From: Phycisphaerales bacterium
GTDB lineage: Bacteria; Planctomycetota; Phycisphaerae; Phycisphaerales; UBA1924
Length of the DNA: 64,000 bases
Direction: 5' to 3'
Assembly: GCA_020831775.1 (NCBI GenBank)
Contig: JAFIFZ010000040.1
Coordinates: forward strand, 1 to 64,000
The translations under genes were made by a program, and so were the position numbers. Shown here one piece after another: positions 12,076-26,219 of this stretch. Under the pieces are notes generated by a model. It was not told where the DNA came from. It saw only the letters and a program-made list of their open reading frames with translations, and did no database searches. Every line of letters starts with the position of its first letter. Within the stretch, counting starts at the first letter, position 1.

Positions 12076-13943
12076 CAGTCACGCTCCGCCTGCGCCGGCC
12101 GCCCCAGCAGCGATCGCCGCTGGTACTCGCGGATGAGGTTCCGGTCGTGGCGTTCCTGTTCGAGGATCGCGTCGGTCACCGGGTCACGGCGCGGCGCATC
12201 AGAGGCGACCTCGCCCGCGTCGCGCATCCGTTCGGCGAGCTCTTGCATCGCTTCGAGCAGGCGCTCGTCCGGCCGCCGCTCGTCGGTCTCGCCCGACGGG
12301 TCGCTCGCGGCGAGCATCTGCTCTTCAGCCTCGGTCGGCGGCTCGGGCGTCTGTTCCGCCTGTCTCTGCAGTTCTCTGAGTTCGCGAGCGATCTCTTCCA
12401 TCTCCTCCGGGTCGCCGACAACGAACCCCGAGTCCATCGCACGCTCCATCGCGTCCTGTATCCGTTCCATCAGCTCCCGCGCACGCTCGACAAACTCCTG
12501 CGGATCGATGTCGGGCAGACCGCCCGGCTCTGTCTCTTCCTCTGTCGGCGCGGCGTCGGCAGGCTCGCCCGTCTCCGGCGTGGGCGTCTCCTGCAATGAC
12601 GGGTCGGGGCGCATCTCTTCTGAAGGGTCAGGCCGCGTCTCGGGGCCGAACTCGGGGTCAAACTCGGGCGGCGATTCGGGCCCCGCTCCGGTTTCCGGCT
12701 CAGGCCGGGGTTCAGACGCCTCGCCCGGCCGGGGCGATCGATCCTCAGCCGCTTCACCGCCCGGACCGGACGGCGGCTGTTCCCACGGCTGCGGCTCAAA
12801 CGCCGAATCCGCGCCGCCCTCGGTCTGGCGTTGGCCCGACTCGGGCTTGGGGGGCGGCCCGGGCGGGAGCTCAGACGGCCCCTGCTGCGGACGACCGGTG
12901 CGGTCCTGCTCAGCACCCGGCTCAACGGGCTGGGGTTGCCCCGGAGCGCCTTCGGGAGGGCCGGATTCGGGCGTGCCCTGAGGCGATCCTTGCGGCTGGT
13001 CCATCGGCCCGGCGGGCGCTGCGCCGGGAGCCGCTTCGCCATCGGCCGCGCTCTCGGGCGGCCCCTGCTGAGGCGCTCCCTCGGGCGGGGTTTGAGGCTC
13101 ATCCTCGCCCCTCTGGGCCTGGCCGGTCGGATCGGGTTGACCCGGCGCCGGCTGGCCTTCCTGCTGAACGCCTTCTTGCTCCGCGCCCTCGGCGCCGGGC
13201 TCGGGCGTCTCCGGCGATTCGGGCTCGGGCTGCTCATCTGCCTGCTCGTCGGGCTGTGTTTCGGCCTCAGGCTCGGGCAGATCGATGCGGTCGTCGAGGG
13301 GTTCCTCCTCGGGCTCTTGGGGCTGTCGCTCTTCTCGAGAGCGGTGCTGCTCCTCGATGCGTCGCGCCTGCTCCTCGGCCGCGAGTTCGTTCAGCTCACG
13401 ACGCAGCTCGAGCTGTTCGGCCACCAACCCCTCGGCGCGCCGGACGATCTCGATGTTCTTCAGCGTCCGCTCGTCGGGCGACATCCGGTACGACCCTCTG
13501 AACGCGCGGGCGCTGTCGCGCAAGAGCCGCATCGCTTCTTCGGGGCTGTCCTTGACCGTTTCGCGAGACCGCTCAAAGAGCACGACGCCGAGGTTGTACC
13601 TCGCCTTCGCCCGGAGCTCGTCGGACGCGCCCGCCCGATCGGCGTCGCGGAAGAGGTCGGCCGCGAGCGTCCGATCGCCACGCTCGAGCACCGCGATCCC
13701 CCGGTTGTAGATCGCCTGGGCGTTGGAGGGGTCGAGTTCGGAGGCCTGCTGGAACGCGACGGACGCCTCCTCTGGCAGGCCCTGCTTGAGCATCAGCTCG
13801 CCGCGGTGCATCAACTCGCCCGTCCGCTGCGCCGTCGCCTGGCCGGCGCACAGCACCAGCATCGCCGCGACGCCGATGCGCCGGCACGCCCCGGTCCGCA
13901 CGCCGGCGAACACCGAGCCAGAACTAGTTGCGTCGCGTCGCAC
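12072..13943 (-). CDS. TPR protein with very long Pro/Glu/Gln-rich region (BatC-like)
   Basis: A 623-residue protein with signal sequence (about 18-38) and at least three TPR-like helices (about 40-160: GELMLKQGLPEEASVAFQQASELDPSNAQAIYNRG, cited in part). A coiled-coil-prone stretch (about 165-200) follows, then about 270 residues of low-complexity Pro/Glu/Gln/Gly (about 215-480), then a helical C-terminus with EMEEIARELRELQRQAEQ. BatC of other bacteria has the TPR part only. The first codons overlap the end of batB by 20 nt. The low-complexity part may be a flexible periplasmic tether. Its boundaries are by eye. Confidence 0.75.
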   Translation of the reverse strand: MRRDATSSGSVFAGVRTGACRRIGVAAMLVLCAGQATAQRTGELMHRGELMLKQGLPEEASVAFQQASELDPSNAQAIYNRGIAVLERGDRTLAADLFRDADRAGASDELRAKARYNLGVVLFERSRETVKDSPEEAMRLLRDSARAFRGSYRMSPDERTLKNIEIVRRAEGLVAEQLELRRELNELAAEEQARRIEEQHRSREERQPQEPEEEPLDDRIDLPEPEAETQPDEQADEQPEPESPETPEPGAEGAEQEGVQQEGQPAPGQPDPTGQAQRGEDEPQTPPEGAPQQGPPESAADGEAAPGAAPAGPMDQPQGSPQGTPESGPPEGAPGQPQPVEPGAEQDRTGRPQQGPSELPPGPPPKPESGQRQTEGGADSAFEPQPWEQPPSGPGGEAAEDRSPRPGEASEPRPEPETGAGPESPPEFDPEFGPETRPDPSEEMRPDPSLQETPTPETGEPADAAPTEEETEPGGLPDIDPQEFVERARELMERIQDAMERAMDSGFVVGDPEEMEEIARELRELQRQAEQTPEPPTEAEEQMLAASDPSGETDERRPDERLLEAMQELAERMRDAGEVASDAPRRDPVTDAILEQERHDRNLIREYQRRSLLGRPAQAERDW

Positions 13944-14955
13944 CGATCAATCCTTCCAGCACCAGCAGCAGCAGGGCGGCGCCCACAAACCACTGGAACT
14001 TCTCTTCGTACTCTACGACCGTCAGATCGTCCGTCTCCGTCCCCCGCGCCCTCGTCACGATGTCGTTGTAGACCGAAGCGAGGTTCATCCGGTCGGTCGC
14101 GACATGGAAGTACGCGCCCCCGGGCGTCGCCCGGGCGATCCGCTCCATCGTCTCCCGCTCCAGGCGTGTGCGCACGGTCTCGCCCCGGAAGGTCAGCGGG
14201 CGCTCGAAGCCCGGCTCGCCGACCGGGATCGTCGCGCCCGCGGGGTCGCCCACGCCGATCGCGATGATGCGCACGCCCGCCTCGGCCGCCTCCTGCGCCG
14301 CCTCTTCGACGAACGAGTCTTGATCCTCGCCGTCGCTGATCAGGATGATGTCGCGGTACCGCCCCTCGGTGTTGTCGAACACTTCAGAGAGCGTCCGCCG
14401 GATCGCGTCGCCGATCTTCGTCCCGCCGACCGGCGCGATCTCCGGCGCCAGCCCCTCGACCTCGATATCCACAAAGCCGTAGTCCAGCGTCAGGGGAGAG
14501 AGCACCACGGGCACGCCCGCGAACGCGACCAGCCCGATCCGGTCACCCCGCGCCTCGCGGAGCACGCCGCTGATCTGCTCCTTCGCCCACTCCAGGCGGC
14601 TGGGCAGAAGGTCTCTCGCCTGCATGCTGCGCGAGACATCCACGAGGAAAACCACATCGCGCCCTGTACGCGTGATCGTCCGCTCGTGCTCGTTCCACTG
14701 CGGGCGGGCCAACGCGACGATGACGCACGCCATCGCCCCCAGCACGAGCACGCCCTTGACGACCGCCCTCGACGCCCCGCCTCCCGCGCTGATCCTCGCC
14801 TGCATCGACTTGTCCGCCAGGCGACGCAGCCGAAGCGAACGGACCACCAGCGCGCTGGCGAGGATCGCCGCGACCACCGGCAGCAGCCACAACGCCGCCA
14901 GCCACTGCGGCGAAGCGAAGCGTGCGCCCTCGAACATGCCGTCGAGTCCGATCAA
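13924..14955 (-). CDS. batB: BatB-like von Willebrand factor A protein
   Basis: A 343-residue membrane protein. Two N-terminal helices (about 18-38 and 67-84) are followed by a VWA domain with a complete MIDAS start, D106-V-S-R-S110, the mid-domain Thr in PVGGTKIGDAI and the Asp in ILISDGEDQD. A C-terminal helix (about 318-338) ends the protein. VWA domains bind partners through a divalent metal. It follows batA with a 4-nt overlap, the usual paired arrangement. Confidence 0.9.
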   Translation of the reverse strand: MIGLDGMFEGARFASPQWLAALWLLPVVAAILASALVVRSLRLRRLADKSMQARISAGGGASRAVVKGVLVLGAMACVIVALARPQWNEHERTITRTGRDVVFLVDVSRSMQARDLLPSRLEWAKEQISGVLREARGDRIGLVAFAGVPVVLSPLTLDYGFVDIEVEGLAPEIAPVGGTKIGDAIRRTLSEVFDNTEGRYRDIILISDGEDQDSFVEEAAQEAAEAGVRIIAIGVGDPAGATIPVGEPGFERPLTFRGETVRTRLERETMERIARATPGGAYFHVATDRMNLASVYNDIVTRARGTETDDLTVVEYEEKFQWFVGAALLLLVLEGLIGATRRN

Positions 14956-16034
14956 GGCAGCCTCCGGAGCAGCGTCCAGCCGATCGCGAGTTCAGCCGAG
15001 AGAAGCATCAGCGCCAGGTACGCCCATCGCTGGAAGCGCTCCTCGTACGCGCCGATCTCGCCCGTGTCGATGTCGGTCCGCTCCAGCGTGTCCAGCTCGC
15101 GGTAGATCTGGCGCAGCGTCTGGGCGTCCTGGGCGTTCCAATACCGCCCGCCCGAGAGCTCCGCCATCGCCCGGAGCTGGGCCTCGTCGATGTAGTCGCT
15201 GATGCGGATCCGAACGCCAGGCCGGTCGCCCGGGATCGTCACCCACCCGCCCGAGCCGCCCACGCCAACGGTGTACAGCTTGATCCCGCGGTCGGCCGAC
15301 ATCTGCGCCGCTTCCATCGGCAGCAGGCGTCCGCGGTTCTGCTCGCCGTCGGTCAGCAGCACGACCACCTTGCTGCGGATCACAAACTCCGGGGGCAGGC
15401 CCGCCTCGCCCCGCAAACGGTTGATGCGGTCGATGTCCTGCTCGGCCCGTTCGAGCTTGGCGACCGCCAGCGCCAACGCGTCGCCGATCGCGGTGCCGCC
15501 CAAAGGCTCGCGGGGCGGCGCCGGCTCGGTCCGCTGCGCCGCCTCGACCACCGCCTCGTGCGAGCGGCTCAGGGGCGCCGTCATCTCCGCAAACCCCGCG
15601 AACGAAAGCACACCCACCATGTCGCCCCTGCGCCCGACGATACCGGTGTCGTCGCCGAGCACAAAGTCGCCCAGCACATCCTTCACGACATCGAACCTCG
15701 TCGTGCGCCGCCCGCCGAAGTGCATCGGCGCCGTCATGCTCGCAGAACGGTCGATCACCAGCATGACCGCGATGCCCTCGGTCGAGAGCCGCGTCACGCC
15801 CAGGTCTTCGCGGGGGCGGGCCAGCGCCACGATCAGACACGCCGCGGCCCCGAGCCGCAGCGCCATCGGCAGCCAGCGGAGCCTCGTCCGCAGCCCCGGA
15901 CGCACCGTGCCCAAGAGGTCCAGCGACGAAAAGACCACAGCCGCGCGTCGCCGACGCGCAAGCGACCAGAGCACCGCGACCGGCAGGAGCGCCAGCAGCC
16001 ACAGCACACCGGGCTCAGCCATGTGCTCGATCAC
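14952..16034 (-). CDS. batA: BatA-like von Willebrand factor A protein
   Basis: A 360-residue membrane protein with helices near 9-25 and 57-73, a VWA domain (MIDAS D95-R-S97-A-S99, Thr in LGGTAIGDAL, Asp in VVLLTDGEQNRG) and a C-terminal helix (about 335-355). Its organisation mirrors the next gene, batB, consistent with an old duplication and a BatA-BatB pair in the membrane. It overlaps its neighbours by 4 nt on each side. Confidence 0.9.
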   Translation of the reverse strand: MIEHMAEPGVLWLLALLPVAVLWSLARRRRAAVVFSSLDLLGTVRPGLRTRLRWLPMALRLGAAACLIVALARPREDLGVTRLSTEGIAVMLVIDRSASMTAPMHFGGRRTTRFDVVKDVLGDFVLGDDTGIVGRRGDMVGVLSFAGFAEMTAPLSRSHEAVVEAAQRTEPAPPREPLGGTAIGDALALAVAKLERAEQDIDRINRLRGEAGLPPEFVIRSKVVVLLTDGEQNRGRLLPMEAAQMSADRGIKLYTVGVGGSGGWVTIPGDRPGVRIRISDYIDEAQLRAMAELSGGRYWNAQDAQTLRQIYRELDTLERTDIDTGEIGAYEERFQRWAYLALMLLSAELAIGWTLLRRLP

Positions 16035-17089
16035 GCCTTGACCTCCCCGCCAGGCCCCGCACCGCTCTGCATCTCCATCACAACCATGTCCGACGCGGCC
16101 TTGATCCGCCCGAGCACCGCTTCCAGATCGTCGAGCATCGCGAGCGTGCGCTCGCGCGTCGCCTTCTCGCCCGCGTAGCGAACGCGGTCGATCTCGCGCA
16201 GCAAATCGGCCAGCCGGTCCCGGTCCCGCGCCGTAAGCCCGAACCAGCCCGATGAGCGTTTGACCATTTCTTCGTGCTCAAGCTGCTCGGCGCCGGGTTC
16301 GAGCCGCTCGCTCACGCAGCGGGCGAACAGATCGCTCGCCTCGTCCCAGAGACCGGGCAGGTTGTCGCTCTCGCTCGCCCTTCGGCGCATCCGGTCGATG
16401 CGCGAGGGCAGGCGGTCCAGCACGCTCCGCGTCGTCCGACGCGTCAGCAGCACCATCGCCAGGATCGCTCCCGCCAGCAGCACCAAAATCCCCGCCAAGG
16501 CGTACGCCATCGTCCGCACCCACGGGAAGGGCGGCGGCGCTTCCCACGCCGACAAGCCCCGGGCCTCGCCGACCTCAAGCTCCGCCCGCTCGCCCCCGTC
16601 GTCGAGCACAGAGACAACGCGGTACGGGACCGAAGCGATCGAGAGCGTTTCTTCCGACCCATCGGGACCGCGCAGCACGAACGAAAGCGGGGGGGTCGCG
16701 TGCTCGCCCGGCAGCGGCGGCTCAAGCGTCAGCGTGCGCTCGATCACGATCCACGCCCCGTCGTCGCCCTCATCGAGCCTCGGAGAACTGCGAGCCGCCC
16801 CGATCGCCTCCAGCCCCGCGTCGCGCCACAGCCTCGCCCAGCCGTCCTCCTCGCCCCGCGGTTGGATCTCCAACGCCGCGGGCTCCAGCAGCACCCAACC
16901 GGGCCGGACACGCGAGACGACCCGAACCTCCAGATCGTCGGCCAGGGTGAGTTCGGCCGGGTGCAGGCTCTTGAAGATCTCCGCATCGCCGGAAACAACG
17001 CGAGATGACGATGGCCCCGCGCCGCTCGGTGCGCCCGCCGCAACAGCGGCCAGCCCCGCCATCAAGATCGCGGCCAGCAACAACCTCAT
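16031..17089 (-). CDS. Bat-operon membrane protein with BatD-like extracellular domain
   Basis: A 352-residue protein with signal peptide (MRLLLAAILMAGLAAVAAGA), an extracellular beta domain of about 140 residues, one membrane helix (about 173-197, MAYALAGILVLLAGAILAM) and a cytoplasmic helical tail. It occupies the slot between DUF58 and batA where many Bat operons carry a DUF4381-type or BatD-like gene. The ATG at 17089 overlaps the stop of the DUF58 gene (ATGA) and gives the signal peptide; the frame is open further upstream but inside that gene. The exact family is uncertain. Confidence 0.7.
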   Translation of the reverse strand: MRLLLAAILMAGLAAVAAGAPSGAGPSSSRVVSGDAEIFKSLHPAELTLADDLEVRVVSRVRPGWVLLEPAALEIQPRGEEDGWARLWRDAGLEAIGAARSSPRLDEGDDGAWIVIERTLTLEPPLPGEHATPPLSFVLRGPDGSEETLSIASVPYRVVSVLDDGGERAELEVGEARGLSAWEAPPPFPWVRTMAYALAGILVLLAGAILAMVLLTRRTTRSVLDRLPSRIDRMRRRASESDNLPGLWDEASDLFARCVSERLEPGAEQLEHEEMVKRSSGWFGLTARDRDRLADLLREIDRVRYAGEKATRERTLAMLDDLEAVLGRIKAASDMVVMEMQSGAGPGGEVKA

Positions 17090-17973
17090 CGGCGTGACCT
17101 CGCGCGGAAGTGCTTCGACAGCGGATCGATCGCGGGGGTGTCGGTCGTGATGTCCACCAGCGAGGCGCCGGCGCTCATGAACGCGCTGTCGGTCTCGATC
17201 CTCCGCCGACGCCACTCTTCCTTGTACCGCTTGGAGGCCGATCGTCCGAGGTCCAGCACGCGCTGCCTGCCGGTCTCCGCGTCGCGCAGCCGGATCAGCC
17301 CGACGCGGGGAAGCGTCCGCTCTTTCGGATCCTCCACGCGGACCGCCGTCACCTCGTGCCTGCGCGAGAGCCGGTTGAGCGCCGACTTGTACGACTCCGT
17401 CGGCGCAAGAAAATCGCTGATCAGAAACACCATCGCCCGGCGTTTGCGAACCGCGCCGAGAAACCGGATCGCCGCGTCGATGTCCGTCCCACGCCCCGCG
17501 GCCTTGTGAAAACGCAGCGCACGCTCGATCCGCAGCCGGTGCTGGCGGCTCTTGCCCGGCGGGATGTACAGCTCCGCCCGGTCGGAAAACAGCAGCAGCC
17601 CCACGCGGTCGTGCGAGCGCCCGGCCGCAGATGCGAGCAGCGACGCGACCTCCGCCGCCGCCTCGCGCTTGGGCCGCCCCGCCGTGCCGAAACTCTCTGA
17701 GGCGCTGATGTCCACCAGCAGCATCACCGTCAGACGCCGCTCTTCGACAAACCTCTTGACGAACGGCGTGCCCGTCCTGGCCGTCACATTCCAGTCGATC
17801 GATCGCACATCGTCGCCCGGCTCGTACGCCCGCACCTCTGCGAACTCCAGCCCCTCGCCTTTGTACGCCGAGAGATAGCTCCCCGCGAGCATCTCCTCAA
17901 CGCGGCGTCTTGGGCGGAAGCGCAGCTGGCGCACACGCCCCGCCCCGACCGGACTCTGGATCTCTTCGCTCAC
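17086..17973 (-). CDS. DUF58 protein
   Basis: A 295-residue cytoplasmic protein of the DUF58 family, regularly encoded with MoxR ATPases. The hallmark GDDVRSIDWNVTARTGTPFV (about residues 53-72) is present, followed by a VWA-like fold with VMLLVDISASES. DUF58 proteins probably act as substrates or adaptors of MoxR. The start overlaps the moxR stop by 4 nt. Some members are longer and have N-terminal membrane helices; this one has none. Confidence 0.92.
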   Translation of the reverse strand: MSEEIQSPVGAGRVRQLRFRPRRRVEEMLAGSYLSAYKGEGLEFAEVRAYEPGDDVRSIDWNVTARTGTPFVKRFVEERRLTVMLLVDISASESFGTAGRPKREAAAEVASLLASAAGRSHDRVGLLLFSDRAELYIPPGKSRQHRLRIERALRFHKAAGRGTDIDAAIRFLGAVRKRRAMVFLISDFLAPTESYKSALNRLSRRHEVTAVRVEDPKERTLPRVGLIRLRDAETGRQRVLDLGRSASKRYKEEWRRRRIETDSAFMSAGASLVDITTDTPAIDPLSKHFRARSRR

Positions 17974-18992
17974 GGCACGGGCACCTTGTCGAGCACGCGA
18001 CGCACGATGTCGTCGGGCAAGACCTCTTCGGCCATCGCCTCGTAGCTCACGATCACGCGGTGACGCATCACATCCGGCGCGATCGCCTTCACATCCCCGG
18101 GCGTCACAAACGCCCGCCCCTGCATGAACGCGTGCGCACGACCCGCGATCGCCAGCGCGATCGAGGCCCGGGGCGACGCCCCGAACTCGATGTACCGCTC
18201 CAGCTTCTCCAGCCCGAACAGCGACGGCTCACGCGTCGTGCGCACAAGATCGACGATGTAGTCACGCACCCGCTCGTCGAGGTGGATCTTGTCGACCACC
18301 GTCCGAGCCGCGCCGATCTCCTCGACATCGATCACCGCCTCGACATTCACAGGCGGGCGGCTGGAGGCCATCCGGTCGATGATCTCCCGCTCCTCGGTCT
18401 TGCTCGGGTAGTCGATCGTCAGCTTGAGCATGAAGCGGTCGACCTGCGCCTCGGGGAGCTGATAAGTCCCTTCCAGCTCGATCGGGTTCTGCGTCGCCAG
18501 AACCAGGAACGGCTCCTGCAGCGGGTAGGTCGTGTCCCCGATCGTCACGCTCCGCTCCTGCATCGCCTCCAGCAGCGCCGACTGCACCTTCGCGGGTGCG
18601 CGGTTGATCTCGTCGGCCAGCAGGATGTTCGCGAAGATCGGGCCCTTGCGGGGCGTAAACTCGCCGCTCTTGGGGTCGTAGATCAGCGTGCCGATCAGGT
18701 CCGCCGGCAAGAGGTCCGGCGTGAACTGGATGCGGTTGAACTTCGCGTGGATCGTCCTCGCCAGCGTGCTGACCGTCAGCGTCTTGGCCAGCCCCGGCAC
18801 GCCCTCCAGCAGCACATGGCCACCGGTCAGCATCCCGATCAGCAGGCGTTCGACCATCGGCCGCTGCCCGACGACCACCCGCTCGACCGAATCGAGCAGA
18901 CGCCGCAACAGCTCGCTGTGCGAGGCGACTTCCTGCTCAAGCTCCGCCGAGACGCCCCGCCCGCCCGACACGACCGCCGTTTGATCACCCAT
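17970..18992 (-). CDS. moxR: MoxR-family AAA+ ATPase
   Basis: A 340-residue AAA+ ATPase that heads the Bat operon. Walker A is GVPGLAKT (residues 64-71), Walker B with sensor context is ILLADEINRAPAKVQSALLE, and the MoxR signature FTPDLLPADLIGT is present. MoxR proteins are chaperone-like and help mature or insert VWA proteins. An AGGAGG site 10 nt upstream supports the ATG at 18992. All downstream genes to 9440 overlap one another, so this promoter probably drives eight genes. Confidence 0.95.
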   Translation of the reverse strand: MGDQTAVVSGGRGVSAELEQEVASHSELLRRLLDSVERVVVGQRPMVERLLIGMLTGGHVLLEGVPGLAKTLTVSTLARTIHAKFNRIQFTPDLLPADLIGTLIYDPKSGEFTPRKGPIFANILLADEINRAPAKVQSALLEAMQERSVTIGDTTYPLQEPFLVLATQNPIELEGTYQLPEAQVDRFMLKLTIDYPSKTEEREIIDRMASSRPPVNVEAVIDVEEIGAARTVVDKIHLDERVRDYIVDLVRTTREPSLFGLEKLERYIEFGASPRASIALAIAGRAHAFMQGRAFVTPGDVKAIAPDVMRHRVIVSYEAMAEEVLPDDIVRRVLDKVPVP

Positions 18993-19198: not shown

Positions 19199-21256
19199 TC
19201 ATCGGGCCGCGTTGTGCATCGCGACATCGATCCAGGCCTCGCTCTTGGCCGCCTCCGCCCGCCGCACGGCCAATCGACCGCTCGCCGTCCGCTGGGCCAC
19301 GGGCCAGAGCAACGCCGCGGAGATCCGCCGAAGCGGCCCCGGTGAGAGCCTGCACAGGACCGTCAGGGGCTCAAACCCGAATTCCTTGATCAGCGCGTCC
19401 TCCAGCGAAACAAAGGTCTCCGCCCGCCCCGGGTCCCCCTGACGCCCCGCACGCCCGTAGAGCTGGCGGTCGACCCGGCGCTCGTCGTTCCGCTCCGTCG
19501 CGATCACCACCAGCCCGCCGAGCTTCCGCGTCTCTTCGTCCAGCGTGATGTCCGTCCCGCGTCCGGCCATGTTCGTCGCCACAGTCACCGACCCCGCCCG
19601 CCCCGCCTGCGCGACGATCTCAGCCTCTTCGGCCTCGCGCGTCGCGTTCAAAATACGGCACTCCACGCCCCGTTCCTGCAGATACGTGCCCAGCCGCTCC
19701 GAATCGCTCACGCTCCGCGAGCCCACCAACACCGGCGAGCCCTTCTCGTTCAGCTCGGCGACCCTCGCCGCGACGGCCCGGAACTTCGCTTCTTCGGTCG
19801 AGTAGACCTTGTCGCGGGTCTGCTTGCGGATGACGGGTTTGTGCGTCGGGATCCGGACCACCGGCAGGCGATAGTCGCGCCACAGCTCATCAGCGACCTC
19901 CCAGACCGTCCCGCTCATCCCGCTCAGCCGCCGGTACTGCTGGAAAAACTGCTGGTAGCTGATGCGAGCACTGGTGCTCCGATCGCCCGAGATTTTCAGC
20001 CCCTCCTTGGCCTCGACCGCCTGATGCACGCCGAGCTGCCACCGCCGCCCGACCAGCAGACGCCCCGTCGAGCGGTCGACGATCGTCACTTCTCCGTCTC
20101 GCGCGAGATAGTCCCGCCCGAGCAGATAGAGCTCCCTCGCCTTGACCGCGAGCTGCACCAGTTCTTCGCGACGCCGGGGCCCGCTCCAGAAGGGGGGCAG
20201 GCCCTCGGCCGCCTTCGCCACCTTCTCACGCCCCGCCGAGGTCAGCCGCACCCTCTTGAGCCGGCGGTCGACCGTGAAGTCCTTGCCCTCGGTCATCAGC
20301 GAGGCGATCTGCGCCGCGACCTGGTGCGCCTCGGCCCCCGCCCCCTCAAGCTCGGTGTCGGCGCCGATGATCGCCGGCGTCACCGCCTCGTCGATCAGCA
20401 CGCTGTCCGCCTCGTCGACGATCGCCGAATACTGCCCTCGCTGCACCACCGCGTCGCGCCAGTGCGGCTCGGCGCTCTCGCCGAAACGCCCGGGCTCGAA
20501 GAGCTCGTCCATCAGCAAGGGCCCGAGCCTCGGCTGCACCGGGCCGACCAGCCTGTCGCGCAGGAAATCGAAGATCGCCTGCTTGTCGGCCATGTAGGTG
20601 ATGTCGCGCCGGTACGCCTCCGCCCGCTCCTCGGGCTTGCTCTGATCGGTCAGCACGCCGACCCGCAGCCCCATCAGCGAATACGCGGGGCCCGTCGTCT
20701 CCGCGTCGCGCCGGGCGAGGTAGTCGTTGACGGTCATCACATGCACGCCACGCCCCATCCACCCGTCGATCGTCGCGGGCAGGATCGCCGTGACCGTCTT
20801 GCCCTCGCCTGTCGCCAGTTCGGCGCAGCACCCGTCGGCCATGACCAACGCGCCCATCACCTGCTCGGGGTGCAGCAAAAACCCCTGCGTGCGCCGCACC
20901 GCCTCGACACAGAGCGCGTACGCCCGGTCGACCGCCGACGCGTCGTCGCGCGAAAGCCTGACCGCGCCGCGAGCCTCGCGCACGCGCTCGAAAAACCCCT
21001 CGTCGCCCAAATCCGCGGCCGCTCGCGCGTCTTCGAGAATCCTGCCCGCCCTCGCCGCCAGTTTCCGCCCGGCTTTCCGCCGCCCGGCCACGCCCCGCGC
21101 CCGCTCGGCGATCGCGTCCAGACCTTTCAGAGGCAATCGTCGCTTCGTGCGCCCGGCGAGCCCGGGCCACAAGCGGGCAGAGGGCGAGTTCCCACGCGAC
21201 CCGTCGAGCAGCGCGTCGAGCCTTCTCCCTGAAAACCGTTCGGCCAGATCGCTCAT
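19199..21256 (-). CDS. SecA-like ATPase lacking the C-terminal scaffold (SecA2-type)
   Basis: A 685-residue SecA relative; housekeeping SecA has about 850-950 residues. NBD1 has ATGEGKT (148-154) and DEAD (281-284, DEADSVLIDEA). A preprotein-crosslinking region follows, and NBD2 carries VATNMAGRGTDI and QLYGRAGRQGDPG. It ends about 65 residues later, so the helical scaffold/wing domains and zinc-binding tail that contact SecYEG, SecB and lipids are missing. The first 100 residues also differ from canonical SecA. The start overlaps the stop of the PqqD/M50/HlyD gene by 4 nt, so it is translationally coupled to an HlyD-type membrane protein. I infer a specialised export motor; the substrate is unknown. 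Confidence 0.88.
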   Translation of the reverse strand: MSDLAERFSGRRLDALLDGSRGNSPSARLWPGLAGRTKRRLPLKGLDAIAERARGVAGRRKAGRKLAARAGRILEDARAAADLGDEGFFERVREARGAVRLSRDDASAVDRAYALCVEAVRRTQGFLLHPEQVMGALVMADGCCAELATGEGKTVTAILPATIDGWMGRGVHVMTVNDYLARRDAETTGPAYSLMGLRVGVLTDQSKPEERAEAYRRDITYMADKQAIFDFLRDRLVGPVQPRLGPLLMDELFEPGRFGESAEPHWRDAVVQRGQYSAIVDEADSVLIDEAVTPAIIGADTELEGAGAEAHQVAAQIASLMTEGKDFTVDRRLKRVRLTSAGREKVAKAAEGLPPFWSGPRRREELVQLAVKARELYLLGRDYLARDGEVTIVDRSTGRLLVGRRWQLGVHQAVEAKEGLKISGDRSTSARISYQQFFQQYRRLSGMSGTVWEVADELWRDYRLPVVRIPTHKPVIRKQTRDKVYSTEEAKFRAVAARVAELNEKGSPVLVGSRSVSDSERLGTYLQERGVECRILNATREAEEAEIVAQAGRAGSVTVATNMAGRGTDITLDEETRKLGGLVVIATERNDERRVDRQLYGRAGRQGDPGRAETFVSLEDALIKEFGFEPLTVLCRLSPGPLRRISAALLWPVAQRTASGRLAVRRAEAAKSEAWIDVAMHNAAR

Positions 21257-23487
21257 ACCCCGAACCTGCCGGTGAGATACTGCCTCGCCTTGCGGAGCAC
21301 CTGGCGCCCGATCGACGCCTCCGGCGCCGAGAACCGCACACGCACGCGCTGCCCGGGCTGGAGCGTGTCGCGTTCGGCCTCGGGGCGGACGATCACCGTC
21401 GCGTAGCGGTAGACCGTCCGCTGACCCTCGGGGTCGTTGGGGTCCAGCAGGATCTCGCCGCCGTAGCGCGTCGTCAGTGTCGGGTTGCTCACCGTCGCGG
21501 CGGCCACCGGCGACATGCTGCTGGCGCGCGCTGGGATCGCATCGAACGCCCTGCCCCGCACGCGGATCGTCGCGGGCACCGTCACGATCTCCTCGTCGGT
21601 CCCCCTGAAGACATACGCCCGCTCACGGTCGCTGATCTCGGCCCTGACGACCAGCTCGTCGGCGGTCATCACCATCGCCATCAGCGTGCCCCGCTGGACA
21701 TACCGCCCCACGAGGTGCTCGCCCGTCCCCGCCCCTCCGAGGGCGACATACTGCCCGTCGATCGGCGAACGCACCGTCAGCCGCTCGATGCGGCCCGCGA
21801 GCTGCTCGGCGCGCTCTTGCAGTGTGCGGATCTGGTTCTGCGCCGCCTCCGCCTCCGCGGGCGACTTCTCCGTCGCCTTGGCGAAAGTCAGCCTCGCGCG
21901 ATCCAGGCGTGCGAGCGTCTGCTCATACTCAGAAACAAGCTCGGCGTTCTGCAGCACGAACACCGGGTCGCCCGCCTCCAGCTCCTGCCCAGAACGCGCC
22001 TGGATCTGCGTGATAAACCCGTTCTCCCCTGCCCGCAGCGCCGCCCGGTTCACCGGCTCCAGCACGCCCGAGGCCGTCGACCCCGAACGCACAGGCACCA
22101 GCCCGATCAACGAGAACAACAGCCCCAAAAACACGGCGCACACGCCCACCGCCCGCACCCGACGCCCGACCAGCTTCGGCGAGCTCGCCAGGTGCCCGAT
22201 CCCCTTGAGCACCGGCCAGACGAACATCACGCTGATCAGCACGATCGCCAGGATGATGCCCAGCGCCGCGTACTGCGACGCGATCAGCAGCACGATGCTC
22301 AGTCCGATCAGGATGCGGTAGGGGGGCGCCATCACCCCGTACACGCCCAGCAGCCACGCCTCTTTCCGGTCCCGCACGCGAGGCGCCCGCAGCCCCTTCA
22401 CGCCGTACGCCAGCCGGTGCAGCAGGTAGCTCCAGAACTCCTTGGCCCGGTGGGCCAGGTTCGGCGAGCCGCTGATATCGCTGAGGATGTAGTACCCGTC
22501 GTAACGCAGCAGCGGGTTCATGTTGAAGATCAGCGTCGTCACGCCGCTGATCACGATCACATTAAACGCCAGGGCGTGCGTCAGCGTCGCCGGGTCGACC
22601 GTCAGCCAGACGAAGACCGCAATCGACGCGACCACCAGCTCGACCATCATCCCCGCCGCCGAAACCAGCACCCGCCGCCAGACCTCGGGGAACCGCCACG
22701 CGCTCGTCGCGTCGCAGTAGGGCAAAGGCAGCACGCCGCCGATCATGATCACGCCGATCTCGGTGCAGCGCCCGCCCATCGCCTTGCAGGCCGTCGCGTG
22801 CCCGAGCTCGTGGATCGCCCGGATGAACATGAACAAAACGCCCAGCCAGACGAGGTTCGCAGGGTCCAGGAAGTTGTTAAACCCGTCCCCGAGCTTCCGC
22901 CAGTTGGACAGAAACGCAAAGAGCGCGCTGCCCACCAAGAGCAGCCACACCACCAGCCCGATCTTCGAATACAAGGGCTTGTACAGGTGCTTCGTCCGCT
23001 CCAGCCAGCGCTCGGGGTTGATCAGCGGCACATTGAAGAAGATGAACTTGCCTGTCCGCTTCTGGAACCGCTCGCTCTTGCTCTGGCGGTGGCGCTCGGC
23101 CAAGATCTCAGGCGTCAACGGGTCAGCGCCCAGCAGCAGCCCGAACTTCTGGAGCTGCGCCAGAAGGTCGACGCACTCACGCTGCGTCGGCGCCGCGTCG
23201 CCGAGCTGGGCGCACGCCGCCTCCCACGCCTCGTCGACCGTCCGCGTCCCGTCGAGCATCCCGAGGAAGAAGTACGCCGCCTCCGTCAGTCGGTAGTAGT
23301 GGCCCGAGGCGGGGTCCTCGACCACATACGCGATCTCGGGCCCGAACTGCTGGCGGATCACCTGCGCGTGCGGGCTCACCTTCGGGCGCTTGTCCGCCAC
23401 GCGGTGCCAACGCTCGCTGAACGAGGGCTCGGGATCCTGTCTGAGCAGTTCGAACGCCACGCGTCCTCCATGTCCGTCGATGTTCAT
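21253..23487 (-). CDS. PqqD-like domain / M50 metalloprotease / HlyD fusion membrane protein
   Basis: A 744-residue protein with three parts. Residues about 38-120 look like a PqqD/RiPP-recognition fold: YYRLTEAAYFFLGMLDG, TVDEAWEAACAQ, then ECVDLLAQLQKFGLLLG. Next is a multi-helix M50 (site-2 protease) core with HELGH at 226-230 and the second-site motif NMNPLLRYDGYY. The C-terminal third (about 490-744) is an HlyD/membrane-fusion region (AGENGFITQIQARSGQELEAGDPVF, cited in part; RLTVRSPIDGQYV). ATG 23487 is preferred because the open frame upstream overlaps the preceding gene by 56 nt. It stops 4 nt inside the SecA-like gene. Related M50-HlyD fusions occur in planctomycetes without an assigned function. 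Confidence 0.85.
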   Translation of the reverse strand: MNIDGHGGRVAFELLRQDPEPSFSERWHRVADKRPKVSPHAQVIRQQFGPEIAYVVEDPASGHYYRLTEAAYFFLGMLDGTRTVDEAWEAACAQLGDAAPTQRECVDLLAQLQKFGLLLGADPLTPEILAERHRQSKSERFQKRTGKFIFFNVPLINPERWLERTKHLYKPLYSKIGLVVWLLLVGSALFAFLSNWRKLGDGFNNFLDPANLVWLGVLFMFIRAIHELGHATACKAMGGRCTEIGVIMIGGVLPLPYCDATSAWRFPEVWRRVLVSAAGMMVELVVASIAVFVWLTVDPATLTHALAFNVIVISGVTTLIFNMNPLLRYDGYYILSDISGSPNLAHRAKEFWSYLLHRLAYGVKGLRAPRVRDRKEAWLLGVYGVMAPPYRILIGLSIVLLIASQYAALGIILAIVLISVMFVWPVLKGIGHLASSPKLVGRRVRAVGVCAVFLGLLFSLIGLVPVRSGSTASGVLEPVNRAALRAGENGFITQIQARSGQELEAGDPVFVLQNAELVSEYEQTLARLDRARLTFAKATEKSPAEAEAAQNQIRTLQERAEQLAGRIERLTVRSPIDGQYVALGGAGTGEHLVGRYVQRGTLMAMVMTADELVVRAEISDRERAYVFRGTDEEIVTVPATIRVRGRAFDAIPARASSMSPVAAATVSNPTLTTRYGGEILLDPNDPEGQRTVYRYATVIVRPEAERDTLQPGQRVRVRFSAPEASIGRQVLRKARQYLTGRFGV

Positions 23488-23521: not shown

Positions 23522-25474
23522 TTACCACCACAGCCGCAGGCGCAGCTCGTCGGCCATCGGCCCGAACAACGCGCCAAGAGCCGTCGTCCGCCCGGCTCTC
23601 AGGCGCGCGATCCCCGTCTCGCCCGCTCTCAGCCAGTCCAACGCGTCCCCGCCACGCTCGAGGATCGACGCCTCCACCCGGTACACATTCCCGCCACCTT
23701 CAGGCTCGGCGACCGGGTTGATCCGAACCACCTCGATCCCCACGCGGTCCTCCGGCCTCGCACGGCTGGAGAGCTTCCCCTCCTGTCCGCGGTGCACCAT
23801 CCCGATGTCCCGCTCGTCCACAAGCAGCACCACCACCCGCTCGCGACCCACAACCTCGAACAAAGGCTGCGATGGATCGATCACCGCCCCCACATAGTCC
23901 TGCAGATCACCGCGGCTCACAGTCCCCGCGATCGGCGACCGGATCTCCGCCCGCCGCAGGCGGTCACGCATCAGCGCGATCGACGCCTCGAGCTCCCGGA
24001 TCTGCAGGTCCGCCGCCTCGGCGTTCACCTCGTCCCGCCCCAGGGTCGCGTCCCGCTGCAAGGCCAAACTCGCCCGCCTCGCGAGCAGCTCGTCGAGCTC
24101 CAGGATCACCGGCCCGGTCTCCATCTGCGCGAGCAGATCGCCCTCGGCGACCACATCCCCCGGACGCACCAGCACATCCTCAAGCACGCCCGTGAACGGG
24201 GGCACAATCGTCCGGGCGACAGAAGACTTGAGCTCCGCGTCCGCCGTCACCCGCTTGGGGATCGGCACGAGCGCCCCGGCCGCAAAGACGATGAAGATCA
24301 GCAGACAGATCAGCTTCACGAGGGTGTGCCTCGGGCCGACGATCGTCGAGCCGACCTCCAGCGTGCGGTCCTTCATCACCGCAAGAACACCCCGGTCCGC
24401 CAGCCGCCTCGTCCAGAGCGCCGGGCCGACAAACTCGGCGACCAGCCGCAGGAGCGGGATCGCCGCGGGCGGGAACGGATCGGCCGCCTCGCGTTCCATC
24501 GTCACCACGCCGACCAGGTCGCCGTCGACACGCAGGGGCAGGCTGATGATCGACGACGGCCCGTACTTCTGGCTCAGGCGGTCGTGCGCTCGGCTGACGC
24601 GGCGCTGCTCGGGGTCGGTCGCCGCCTCGGGGGGCTCGGGGTAGAGCACCTCGATGTCCTGCAGGGCGCACTCCTCCATCGCGGCCTCGATCGCCTCGGA
24701 CGCGGGCCCCTTCTTGTCGAGATCCTCCGACCCGCTGATCGCCGCGAGCTTGAGCACCGCCGCGGGGCCCTGGATCAGTCCGATCGAGACCCTGGTGCAG
24801 CCGAAGCGGCGCCGGATCTCGTGGCACATGAGCGAGCCCATCGTCCGCGCGTCGGCGCCCTGCTGCGAGGCGTCGAGCAGTTCGAGCGTCTCGCGGAGCA
24901 GCACACGGTGCTGCGCCTCGCTCATCGCGTGCTGACGCCACAGGAACGCCTCGAAGCGCGCGCCCATCAGCGCCAGCAGCTCCAGCGCCCGCTCGCCGGG
25001 CACCGACGCCCCAGCCGGCATCACCATCACGCTGGCGCCCTCGACACGGCCGTCGGCGACCAGGGGCGTCGCCAGCACGCGGTGCACCGGCTCGGCCCCG
25101 TAGAGCGCCCCCGGGGTCTCCACCGTCACGGTGTCGACGCGACCGGCGACCTGCGAGTCCGCCTGGCGGGGCGAGGCGACCACCTCGCCGGCGATCTTCT
25201 CAAGACGCTGCAGCGCAGGTCCGCGGAAGAGGTCGGGCAGGTCGCCCGGGGCCCCCGCCTCGGGCCAGCGCACAAAGAGACCGGCCCGGCGTTGAGCCGA
25301 GCCGGCCAGAAAAACTCCGCCCGCGACAGCACCCACGAGCTCGGCCTGAGCCCGCACCAGTTCACCGAGGAAGCCCCGGAGTTCGGCGACGCGATCGCTC
25401 TGGGGGGCGAGGTTCGCCGGCTGATGCTCGGCCGCGGGCAGCGCGGCCCCTTGGCTCGTGGATCCGGTGCTCAT
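23522..25474 (-). CDS. GAF-domain / HlyD membrane-fusion protein
   Basis: A 650-residue protein. The first 190 residues are helical and may be a degenerate GAF domain; a GAF-like domain follows (about 195-370: RRRFGCTRVSIGLIQGPAAV; SSIISLPLRVDGDLVGVVTMER, cited in part). Then comes one membrane helix (about 388-410, LVKLICLLIFIVFAAGALVP), a biotinyl-lipoyl/HlyD part with a coiled-coil hairpin (PPFTGVLEDVLVRPGDVVAEGDLL, cited in part; RSPIAGTVSRGD) and beta domains to the end. The layout puts a sensory domain in the cytoplasm and an adaptor outside. It lies 34 nt upstream of the M50 fusion and is probably its partner. Confidence 0.85.
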   Translation of the reverse strand: MSTGSTSQGAALPAAEHQPANLAPQSDRVAELRGFLGELVRAQAELVGAVAGGVFLAGSAQRRAGLFVRWPEAGAPGDLPDLFRGPALQRLEKIAGEVVASPRQADSQVAGRVDTVTVETPGALYGAEPVHRVLATPLVADGRVEGASVMVMPAGASVPGERALELLALMGARFEAFLWRQHAMSEAQHRVLLRETLELLDASQQGADARTMGSLMCHEIRRRFGCTRVSIGLIQGPAAVLKLAAISGSEDLDKKGPASEAIEAAMEECALQDIEVLYPEPPEAATDPEQRRVSRAHDRLSQKYGPSSIISLPLRVDGDLVGVVTMEREAADPFPPAAIPLLRLVAEFVGPALWTRRLADRGVLAVMKDRTLEVGSTIVGPRHTLVKLICLLIFIVFAAGALVPIPKRVTADAELKSSVARTIVPPFTGVLEDVLVRPGDVVAEGDLLAQMETGPVILELDELLARRASLALQRDATLGRDEVNAEAADLQIRELEASIALMRDRLRRAEIRSPIAGTVSRGDLQDYVGAVIDPSQPLFEVVGRERVVVLLVDERDIGMVHRGQEGKLSSRARPEDRVGIEVVRINPVAEPEGGGNVYRVEASILERGGDALDWLRAGETGIARLRAGRTTALGALFGPMADELRLRLWW

Positions 25475-25535: not shown

Positions 25536-25901
25536 TCAGTCGTCGGCCAGACGGGGGCCGGGGGTGGCGCCGCCGCCGGTCCCGGGCTGGGGCTGACGCT
25601 GCAGCTGGATCTCGCCGTTGCGCTCCTCGTACTGGCGGATGACCTGCCCGAGGCTGATCGCCAGGCGCTTGGCGCCGACCCAGTTCATGATGACGCGGCT
25701 CCCGATCGAGAACAGCAGTGCCTGCTGCCCGTCGGGGTTCTGCATCGGGAGGTTCATCCCGAAGTCCATGACCACCTCGTCGGCGGTGGTGGAGGTCCGG
25801 ATGGTGTTCGAATAGGTGGAGTGCATCTTGCTTTCGTCGATCCGGAGCTGGATCTGACGCTGCTGCCCCTGCGCACCCTGCTGCTCGCCGCCCTCGGCCA
25901 T
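25536..25901 (-). CDS. DUF3467 protein
   Basis: A 121-residue soluble protein with the DUF3467 pattern: YSNTIRTSTTADEVVMDFG, then VIMNWVGAKRLAISLGQVIRQYEERNG (cited in part), and a Gln/Gly/Pro-rich end. The family has no known function. ATG 25901 is chosen because GAGGAAGG lies 9 nt upstream; a TTG at 25910 would sit too close to it. It ends 61 nt before the GAF-HlyD gene on the same strand and may be the first gene of the export cluster. Confidence 0.8.
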   Translation of the reverse strand: MAEGGEQQGAQGQQRQIQLRIDESKMHSTYSNTIRTSTTADEVVMDFGMNLPMQNPDGQQALLFSIGSRVIMNWVGAKRLAISLGQVIRQYEERNGEIQLQRQPQPGTGGGATPGPRLADD

Positions 25902-26219
25902 GGTGGTCAACCTTCCTCGAAAAGTGTGCTCTCGCTCGCTCGCCGGGCCCGTGCTTCCGGGCGGTCACCGACGCGACCCCGCCGACCGGCTTGCGCGTCC
26001 GGCCAGGGTCCGGCCTGTCTATCAGGCCGGCTCTGCTGCCAAAGAGGATACTCGGCTCGGCCCCGGGGTCCAGCCTTTCGGCCACGCCAGGGTCTGGTTC
26101 TGCCGGTTCCTGTTTCTGCGTCGGCCCGGCCCGCCGGGGCTGGCGGGCGTCCCTCGCGGGCTCGCACACCCCGATTCGACGCTCCGGGCCGCCCGGTTCC
26201 CCGTCTGACGATCTGCAAA
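25902..26219. other. Intergenic region with a perfect hairpin
   Basis: No gene in about 318 bp. It contains the DUF3467 ribosome site and a perfect inverted repeat CCGGCCTG-TCTAT-CAGGCCGG at 26010-26030. No T tract follows on either strand, so it is not a standard terminator. It could be an operator, or an RNA structure downstream of tRNA-Leu. Confidence 0.4.

Follow-up and report, generated by a model that had tools for sequence, protein, structure and literature searches.

An RRE-site-2 protease-HlyD fusion protein as the probable membrane hub of a maturation and export module for giant LEPR-XLL proteins

We analysed a fusion gene in a 64,000-nucleotide stretch of DNA from a Phycisphaerales bacterium (hereafter the window). 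Its product is probably the membrane hub of a dedicated maturation and export system whose clients are LEPR-XLL proteins. These surface or secreted proteins are very large, built mostly of repeats and without a Sec signal. Support for the LEPR-XLL giants as substrates of the module formed by this gene and its neighbours is strong, and the fusion protein probably reads and clips their LEPR-XLL tag while helping to export them. Our evidence consists of the computed architecture of the protein, its conserved motifs, its operon, its association with LEPR-XLL giants both across genomes and by gene position, and the sorting of leader types with protease clades. This link joins two orphans. One is a conserved secretion-like locus to which a 2015 paper could assign no role, and the other is the LEPR-XLL tag, which is found on some of the largest bacterial proteins. 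It supplies a directly testable substrate, signal and receptor, and suggests that a SecA motor has been rebuilt for another channel. To our knowledge, the RRE domains described so far belong to PQQ and to natural products that are small peptides; the link would stretch RRE recognition from such small peptides to giant proteins.

The features of the module in the window are as follows.
21253..23487, minus strand: RRE(PqqD)-site-2 protease-HlyD fusion gene, 744 aa plus stop (translation, Pfam, models)
23125..23385, minus strand: RRE/PqqD winged-helix domain, residues ~35-121 (Pfam, fold match, alignment)
22453..22863, minus strand: site-2 protease core, residues 209-345 (HExxH and D330 unchanged across the alignment of 48 homologues)
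21313..22095, minus strand: HlyD/MacA/MexA-like membrane-fusion arm, residues ~465-725 (Foldseek, Pfam)
19199..21256, minus strand: truncated SecA-like ATPase, 685 aa (Pfam SecA_DEAD 2.2e-77, P-loop_SecA, PP_bind)
23522..25474, minus strand: GAF-TM-HlyD protein, 650 aa (Pfam GAF 1.6e-11, HlyD_3 2.4e-14)
25536..25910, minus strand: DUF3467 gene, start codon uncertain (Pfam 6.9e-18; same position in annotated plasmid operons)

The fusion gene is encoded by the minus strand at 21253-23487 and not by the plus strand. An earlier note on this DNA had described its N-terminal region as PqqD-like. Both motifs quoted there are present (YYRLTEAAYFFLGMLDG, residues 64-80, and LLAQLQKFGLLLG, residues 108-120), and PqqD (PF05402) matched residues 54-118 with an E of 1e-8 and 35.8 bits, above the Pfam cut-off of 23.4. 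A paralogue in the same genome also exceeded this cut-off, the N-terminal domain was kept across 48 aligned homologues, and its model has the RRE fold, so the PqqD call is not a matter of chance. In the same alignment, a conserved segment around W27 precedes the domain. The site-2 protease that the note placed in the same chain is clearly there: Peptidase_M50 matched residues 217-322 (E 1.9e-8), with the HExxH motif at residues 226-230 (nt 22798-22812) and D330 carried by an NxNPLxRxDGYY motif. H226, E227, H230 and D330 were unchanged in 48/48 aligned relatives. Seven hydrophobic TM helices lie between the RRE domain and the HlyD arm; because this number is odd, the two should face opposite sides, the RRE the cytoplasm and the arm the periplasm. 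HlyD domains were matched at residues 488-668 (HlyD_D23 1.1e-6, HlyD_3 2.7e-5). PADLOC gave no match, the matches in PHROGs were confined to the HlyD region and to weak families without a known function, and a sequence search of the PDB yielded adaptor matches and weak ones only.

The AlphaFold model of residues 1-135, built from the 48 sequences (pLDDT 84), consists of three strands followed by three helices, the beta-beta-beta-alpha-alpha-alpha arrangement of the RRE fold. By VIA-align, it matched the RREs of lasso-peptide B1 proteins that were solved with their leaders (Z 9.2 to 6jx3 and 9.1 to 5v1u) and PqqD itself (5sxy, Z 8.5). The PqqD reading had been staked on this fold, and it held. 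The terminal domains of GdmN and NovN scored as high (Z 9.6-10.8), indicating that the RRE fold is common and is alone no proof of peptide binding. In the full-length model (pLDDT 89.6), Foldseek matched the C-terminal part to MacA (3fpp, E 2.5e-12), MexA (1.1e-11) and also AcrA. By these matches, this part has the lipoyl/barrel-sandwich, alpha-hairpin and beta-barrel elements of HlyD/MFP adaptors, and together with the Pfam HlyD domains it bears out the membrane-fusion arm assigned earlier.

The SecA-like gene lies downstream of the fusion gene, and its ATG overlaps the fusion-gene stop codon (ATGA). The GAF-TM-HlyD and DUF3467 genes stand upstream. A scan of GTDB genomes with the fusion-protein alignment gave 80 loci from many phyla, including Planctomycetota, Pseudomonadota, Nitrospirota, Omnitrophota, Elusimicrobiota, Verrucomicrobiota, Kiritimatiellota and Spirochaetota. 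The M50 fusion gene was adjoined by GAF-HlyD in 79/80 loci and by a SecA-like gene in 74/80. BLAST with the window copy found DUF3467 in 22/80 related loci; the gene appears to belong regularly to the module. In annotated plasmids the order was LEPR-XLL giant, DUF3467, GAF-HlyD, PqqD-M50, SecA-like, HlyD and sometimes TolC, with variations; several operons contain a third HlyD gene and TolC, and no TolC-type gene was seen in the window module. The host genome carries a second full module (contig C47, L003 6799-14083) with HlyD, GAF-HlyD, PqqD-M50-HlyD and SecA-like genes. It includes an extra HlyD gene, and its fusion protein is 34% identical to the window copy. Two other module copies (L287 and L317) have a LEPR leader and adaptors, and no SecA-like gene was found next to them; such copies may borrow the ATPase of another copy.

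The module itself is already known; the candidate client, its tag and the proposed role of the RRE are new. Kamneva, Poudel and Ward reported a secondary SecA_DEAD locus in 2015 and called its broader role completely unknown (PMC4452313). That locus has the same gene set, SecA_DEAD, Peptidase_M50, GAF/HlyD, HlyD and sometimes OEP, and is patchy across phyla (PMC4452313). SecA_DEAD, M50 and GAF/HlyD occur together in the window, at the C47 paralogue and in 74-79 of the 80 loci. PqqD has no occurrence in the 2015 paper and no substrate is named there (PMC4452313); the RRE domain and the LEPR-XLL clients are added here. In three records (L314, L315 and L312), the SecA-like gene is annotated as a prepilin peptidase or a DEAD/DEAH box helicase, and such annotations hide the module from keyword searches.

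The LEPR-XLL tag (NF012209) was suggested by a protein near the C47 module that starts FERLEPRIVLAA. NF012209 (LEPR-XLL, LEPR-8K) is known from very large proteins. These proposed clients are known only by their sequence motif. In three samples of genomes, LEPR-XLL tracked the module. First, it was present in 12 of 199 Planctomycetota genomes, that is, in 10/14 with a close fusion homologue and in 2/185 others, where close means E <= 1e-89. In addition, among 200 Burkholderiales genomes, it occurred in 21/25 against 2/175 others, or 20/25 and 1/175 once two matches judged false were dropped (one in G247, antisense to GAF-HlyD, and one in G331, in a 23-codon frame). Finally, the 199 Rhizobiales genomes gave 5/5 against 2/194. 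The line between close and distant homologues was set after the scores had been seen. The Fisher p-values were 3e-12, 2e-22 and 8e-9 for Planctomycetota, Burkholderiales and Rhizobiales, respectively, and they overstate the evidence since the sampled genomes are not phylogenetically independent. More weight than these values should be given to the recurrence of the pattern in three separate clades and to the within-family contrasts.

Taking the three samples together, 40 of the 42 LEPR-XLL genomes have an RRE-M50-HlyD homologue of some kind. In a set of 39 genomes that carry the module and represent several phyla, 31 had LEPR-XLL proteins, in open frames of up to 14,390 codons; none of 14 control genomes had one. 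The co-occurring clients span roughly 1,000-14,000 codons. Another candidate client tag, PF07595 (Planc_extracel), was present in only 4/199 genomes and did not track the module. A search of non-subscription literature returned no paper linking LEPR-XLL, PqqD and SecA; the two papers found to name LEPR-XLL do so in passing, without a tie to the module.

The module and the LEPR-XLL genes are also physically linked. In 14/25 loci, the fusion gene is preceded on its own strand by a LEPR-XLL frame of 6,400-14,400 codons, whose end lies about 1.5-7 kb upstream. In Burkholderiales, such a frame lies within 10 kb of 14/37 fusion genes, against about 0.8 expected. On plasmids, annotated LEPR-XLL genes of 12-39 kb stand first in the operon. 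The Methylosinus and Mesorhizobium giants, not annotated as LEPR-XLL, begin with the motif, and the Alisedimentitalea giant, as annotated, has no motif at its start. A leader search within about 10 kb of the 80 loci recovered only 3, because a giant gene 10-40 kb long places its leader beyond the flank. The consensus of 70 leaders is a basic stretch followed by [FLM]-E-x-L-E-P-R-[LVI]-L-L-S-[AG]-D.

We considered whether the LEPR-XLL proteins leave by a different route, either Sec or an ABC type I system encoded elsewhere in the genome, with the part of the module limited to trimming, anchoring or releasing them at the envelope. The RTX, cadherin and PKD repeats of some LEPR proteins, as in type I substrates, would suit this explanation, as would the C-terminal RTX and serralysin domains of a Vibrio LEPR-XLL giant (PMC10868602) and the several OEP/TolC genes elsewhere in the host genome. 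However, a TM-like segment was found in 1/70 leaders and the other 69 have neither a TM-like nor a Sec-like segment, an LSGGQ-type ABC ATPase lies within 8 kb of the module in only 3/80 loci, and the module operon has its own ATPase, adaptors and sometimes TolC. We therefore regard this explanation as unlikely. HlyD adaptors, TolC in some operons and giant repeat proteins are common to the module and to type I secretion (ABC-HlyD-TolC), but the module has a SecA-like ATPase and a site-2 protease instead of an ABC transporter. Unlike in type I secretion, the N-terminal leader of its clients is probably read by the RRE.

We compared the SecA-like protein with canonical SecA. Across the alignment, the family keeps its motifs (GEGKT 66/71, DExD 70/71, motif VI 69/71), but the proteins end early and the wing/scaffold is missing. 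SecA_SW is not among the Pfam matches of the window's SecA-like protein and is absent from two SecA-like paralogues scanned beside the canonical SecA of the host genome, which has it. Judged by this wing and scaffold domain, the SecA-like protein is not a canonical SecA. The two-helix finger, the part of SecA that enters SecY, belongs to the wing/scaffold region. Its loss argues against the proposal that the SecA-like ATPase works with SecYEG in the manner of an accessory SecA2, with the S2P-HlyD proteins acting after Sec translocation. In favour of this proposal, the protein is homologous to SecA and its motor is intact, but no SecY paralogue was identified among the loci read, and we consider the proposal improbable. 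The canonical SecA of the host genome (L384:1901-6115, G000:C64) is unusually long, with 1404 codons and insertions relative to its paralogues.

For the module as a maturation and export system, we infer that the RRE binds the leader, the protease cuts it and the SecA-like protein is the motor, and likewise the path of the chain. In the cytoplasm, the RRE would bind the basic leader at the N-terminus of the client through the [FLM]E-x-LEPR-x-LLS-[AG]-D motif and present it to the intramembrane zinc protease, which would remove it. The truncated SecA-like ATPase, which retains both nucleotide-binding folds and the preprotein-crosslinking domain but not the SecY-directed wing/scaffold, would drive the chain out. 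The chain would pass through a conduit formed by the seven-helix protease, GAF-HlyD and other HlyD adaptors, together with an outer-membrane channel of the TolC type.

The earlier note had also proposed that the protein could select a peptide, cut it and hand it out of the cell. Selection, cutting and export fit the evidence, but a small RiPP client is unlikely given the SecA-like, GAF-HlyD and DUF3467 neighbours and the giants that track the family. One likeness speaks for a RiPP system. The daptide leader protease MpaP (NF041824; PMC10036551) also has an RRE N-terminal to a site-2 protease and is homologous over residues 52-430 (E 9.5e-49); NF041824 is the best NCBIfam match of the fusion protein, and 48/48 homologues match it. 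The score is 166.5 against an equivalog cut-off of 300, however, and the fusion protein differs from MpaP in its extra HlyD arm, its other partner genes and its giant clients, in place of modified peptides. No daptide-modifying or other RiPP-modifying enzyme was identified in the window's operon or in the annotated operons; near the Methylosinus operon, the opposite strand encodes one class III aminotransferase. The YydH/LiaK epipeptide proteases (NF058609), M50 proteins that likewise process peptides, were matched weakly by 48/48 fusion homologues, but the match is limited to the protease part (residues 169-337; 36.6 against a cut-off of 225). With co-occurring clients of roughly 1,000-14,000 codons, a classical RiPP pathway is not supported, and we judge it very improbable. 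Thus, the domain calls of the note were right and its mechanism was partly right, whereas its RiPP client was probably wrong. Similarly remote is a regulated-intramembrane-proteolysis switch, with the GAF protein as the sensor of a signal and a regulator as the substrate of the protease: the partner has a GAF domain, for which Kamneva et al. suggested a sensory role (PMC4452313), but HlyD arms on both proteins, the SecA-like motor and the third HlyD/TolC of several operons point to transport, and the module is tightly tied to giant clients.

Leader types sort with protease clades. Distant RRE-M50-HlyD proteins without a SecA-like neighbour adjoin giants whose leaders end in FDGA or LDGA; at L365, L369, L373, L376, L358 and L362, the giant-frame leaders of this sister class read LEPRx[ML][FL]DGA. 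When the leaders found beside a module were mapped on the protease tree (n=37), the three leader types needed 2 changes, which is the minimum, compared with a mean of 10.3 after shuffling; none of 200 shuffles was as low. The genomes G253 and G334 have two proteases each; the two fall in different clades, and each adjoins a leader type of its own. Likewise, G325 has LLMSAD-type and LFDGA-type pairs, of which only the LFDGA-type is on the protease tree. Recognition predicts this sorting, and an operon inherited as a unit could look identical. An L-[DE]-P core might be common to LEPR leaders and daptide leaders; the daptide leader ELDPMEAP was read from mutagenesis (PMC10036551). We tentatively propose that the module may be a separate kind of secretion, in which proteins as long as about 14,000 residues carry an N-terminal LEPR-XLL tag that is read by an RRE and clipped by an adaptor-fused intramembrane protease, and a SecA-derived motor lacking the SecY-engaging part threads the chain through HlyD/TolC, with LEPRxLLSAD, LEPRxL[YH]SAD and LEPRxMFDGA as sister classes, each with a cognate protease.

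The window copy belongs to a sub-branch with 43-46% identity. In genomes with only this branch, we found degenerate leaders, namely LESRVLLSA (G172), LEQRLVLAP (G231) and LEARKLLSG (G234), which missed the E-value limit and were recognised by eye. Several module genomes without a match at the threshold have such a version opening a large frame, among them G172, G234 and G077 (LERRVMLSA). With these diverged leaders, the link to LEPR-XLL clients is weaker for this sub-branch. For the window itself the link is indirect, as it contains no LEPR-type gene and the host genome has at least three LEPR-type proteins outside it; by inference, LEPR-type proteins may be the substrates of the window copy as well. 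These host proteins include one of 2668 aa without a Pfam match and a 1872-aa subtilase (L302, L303), as well as an 835-aa cyclophilin-like protein (L006:222-2729) about 6 kb from the C47 module. Directly downstream of the window module, a minus-strand operon at 13924-18992 encodes a MoxR-type AAA ATPase, identified by Pfam; the genes after it resemble those of DUF58 and von Willebrand-type proteins.
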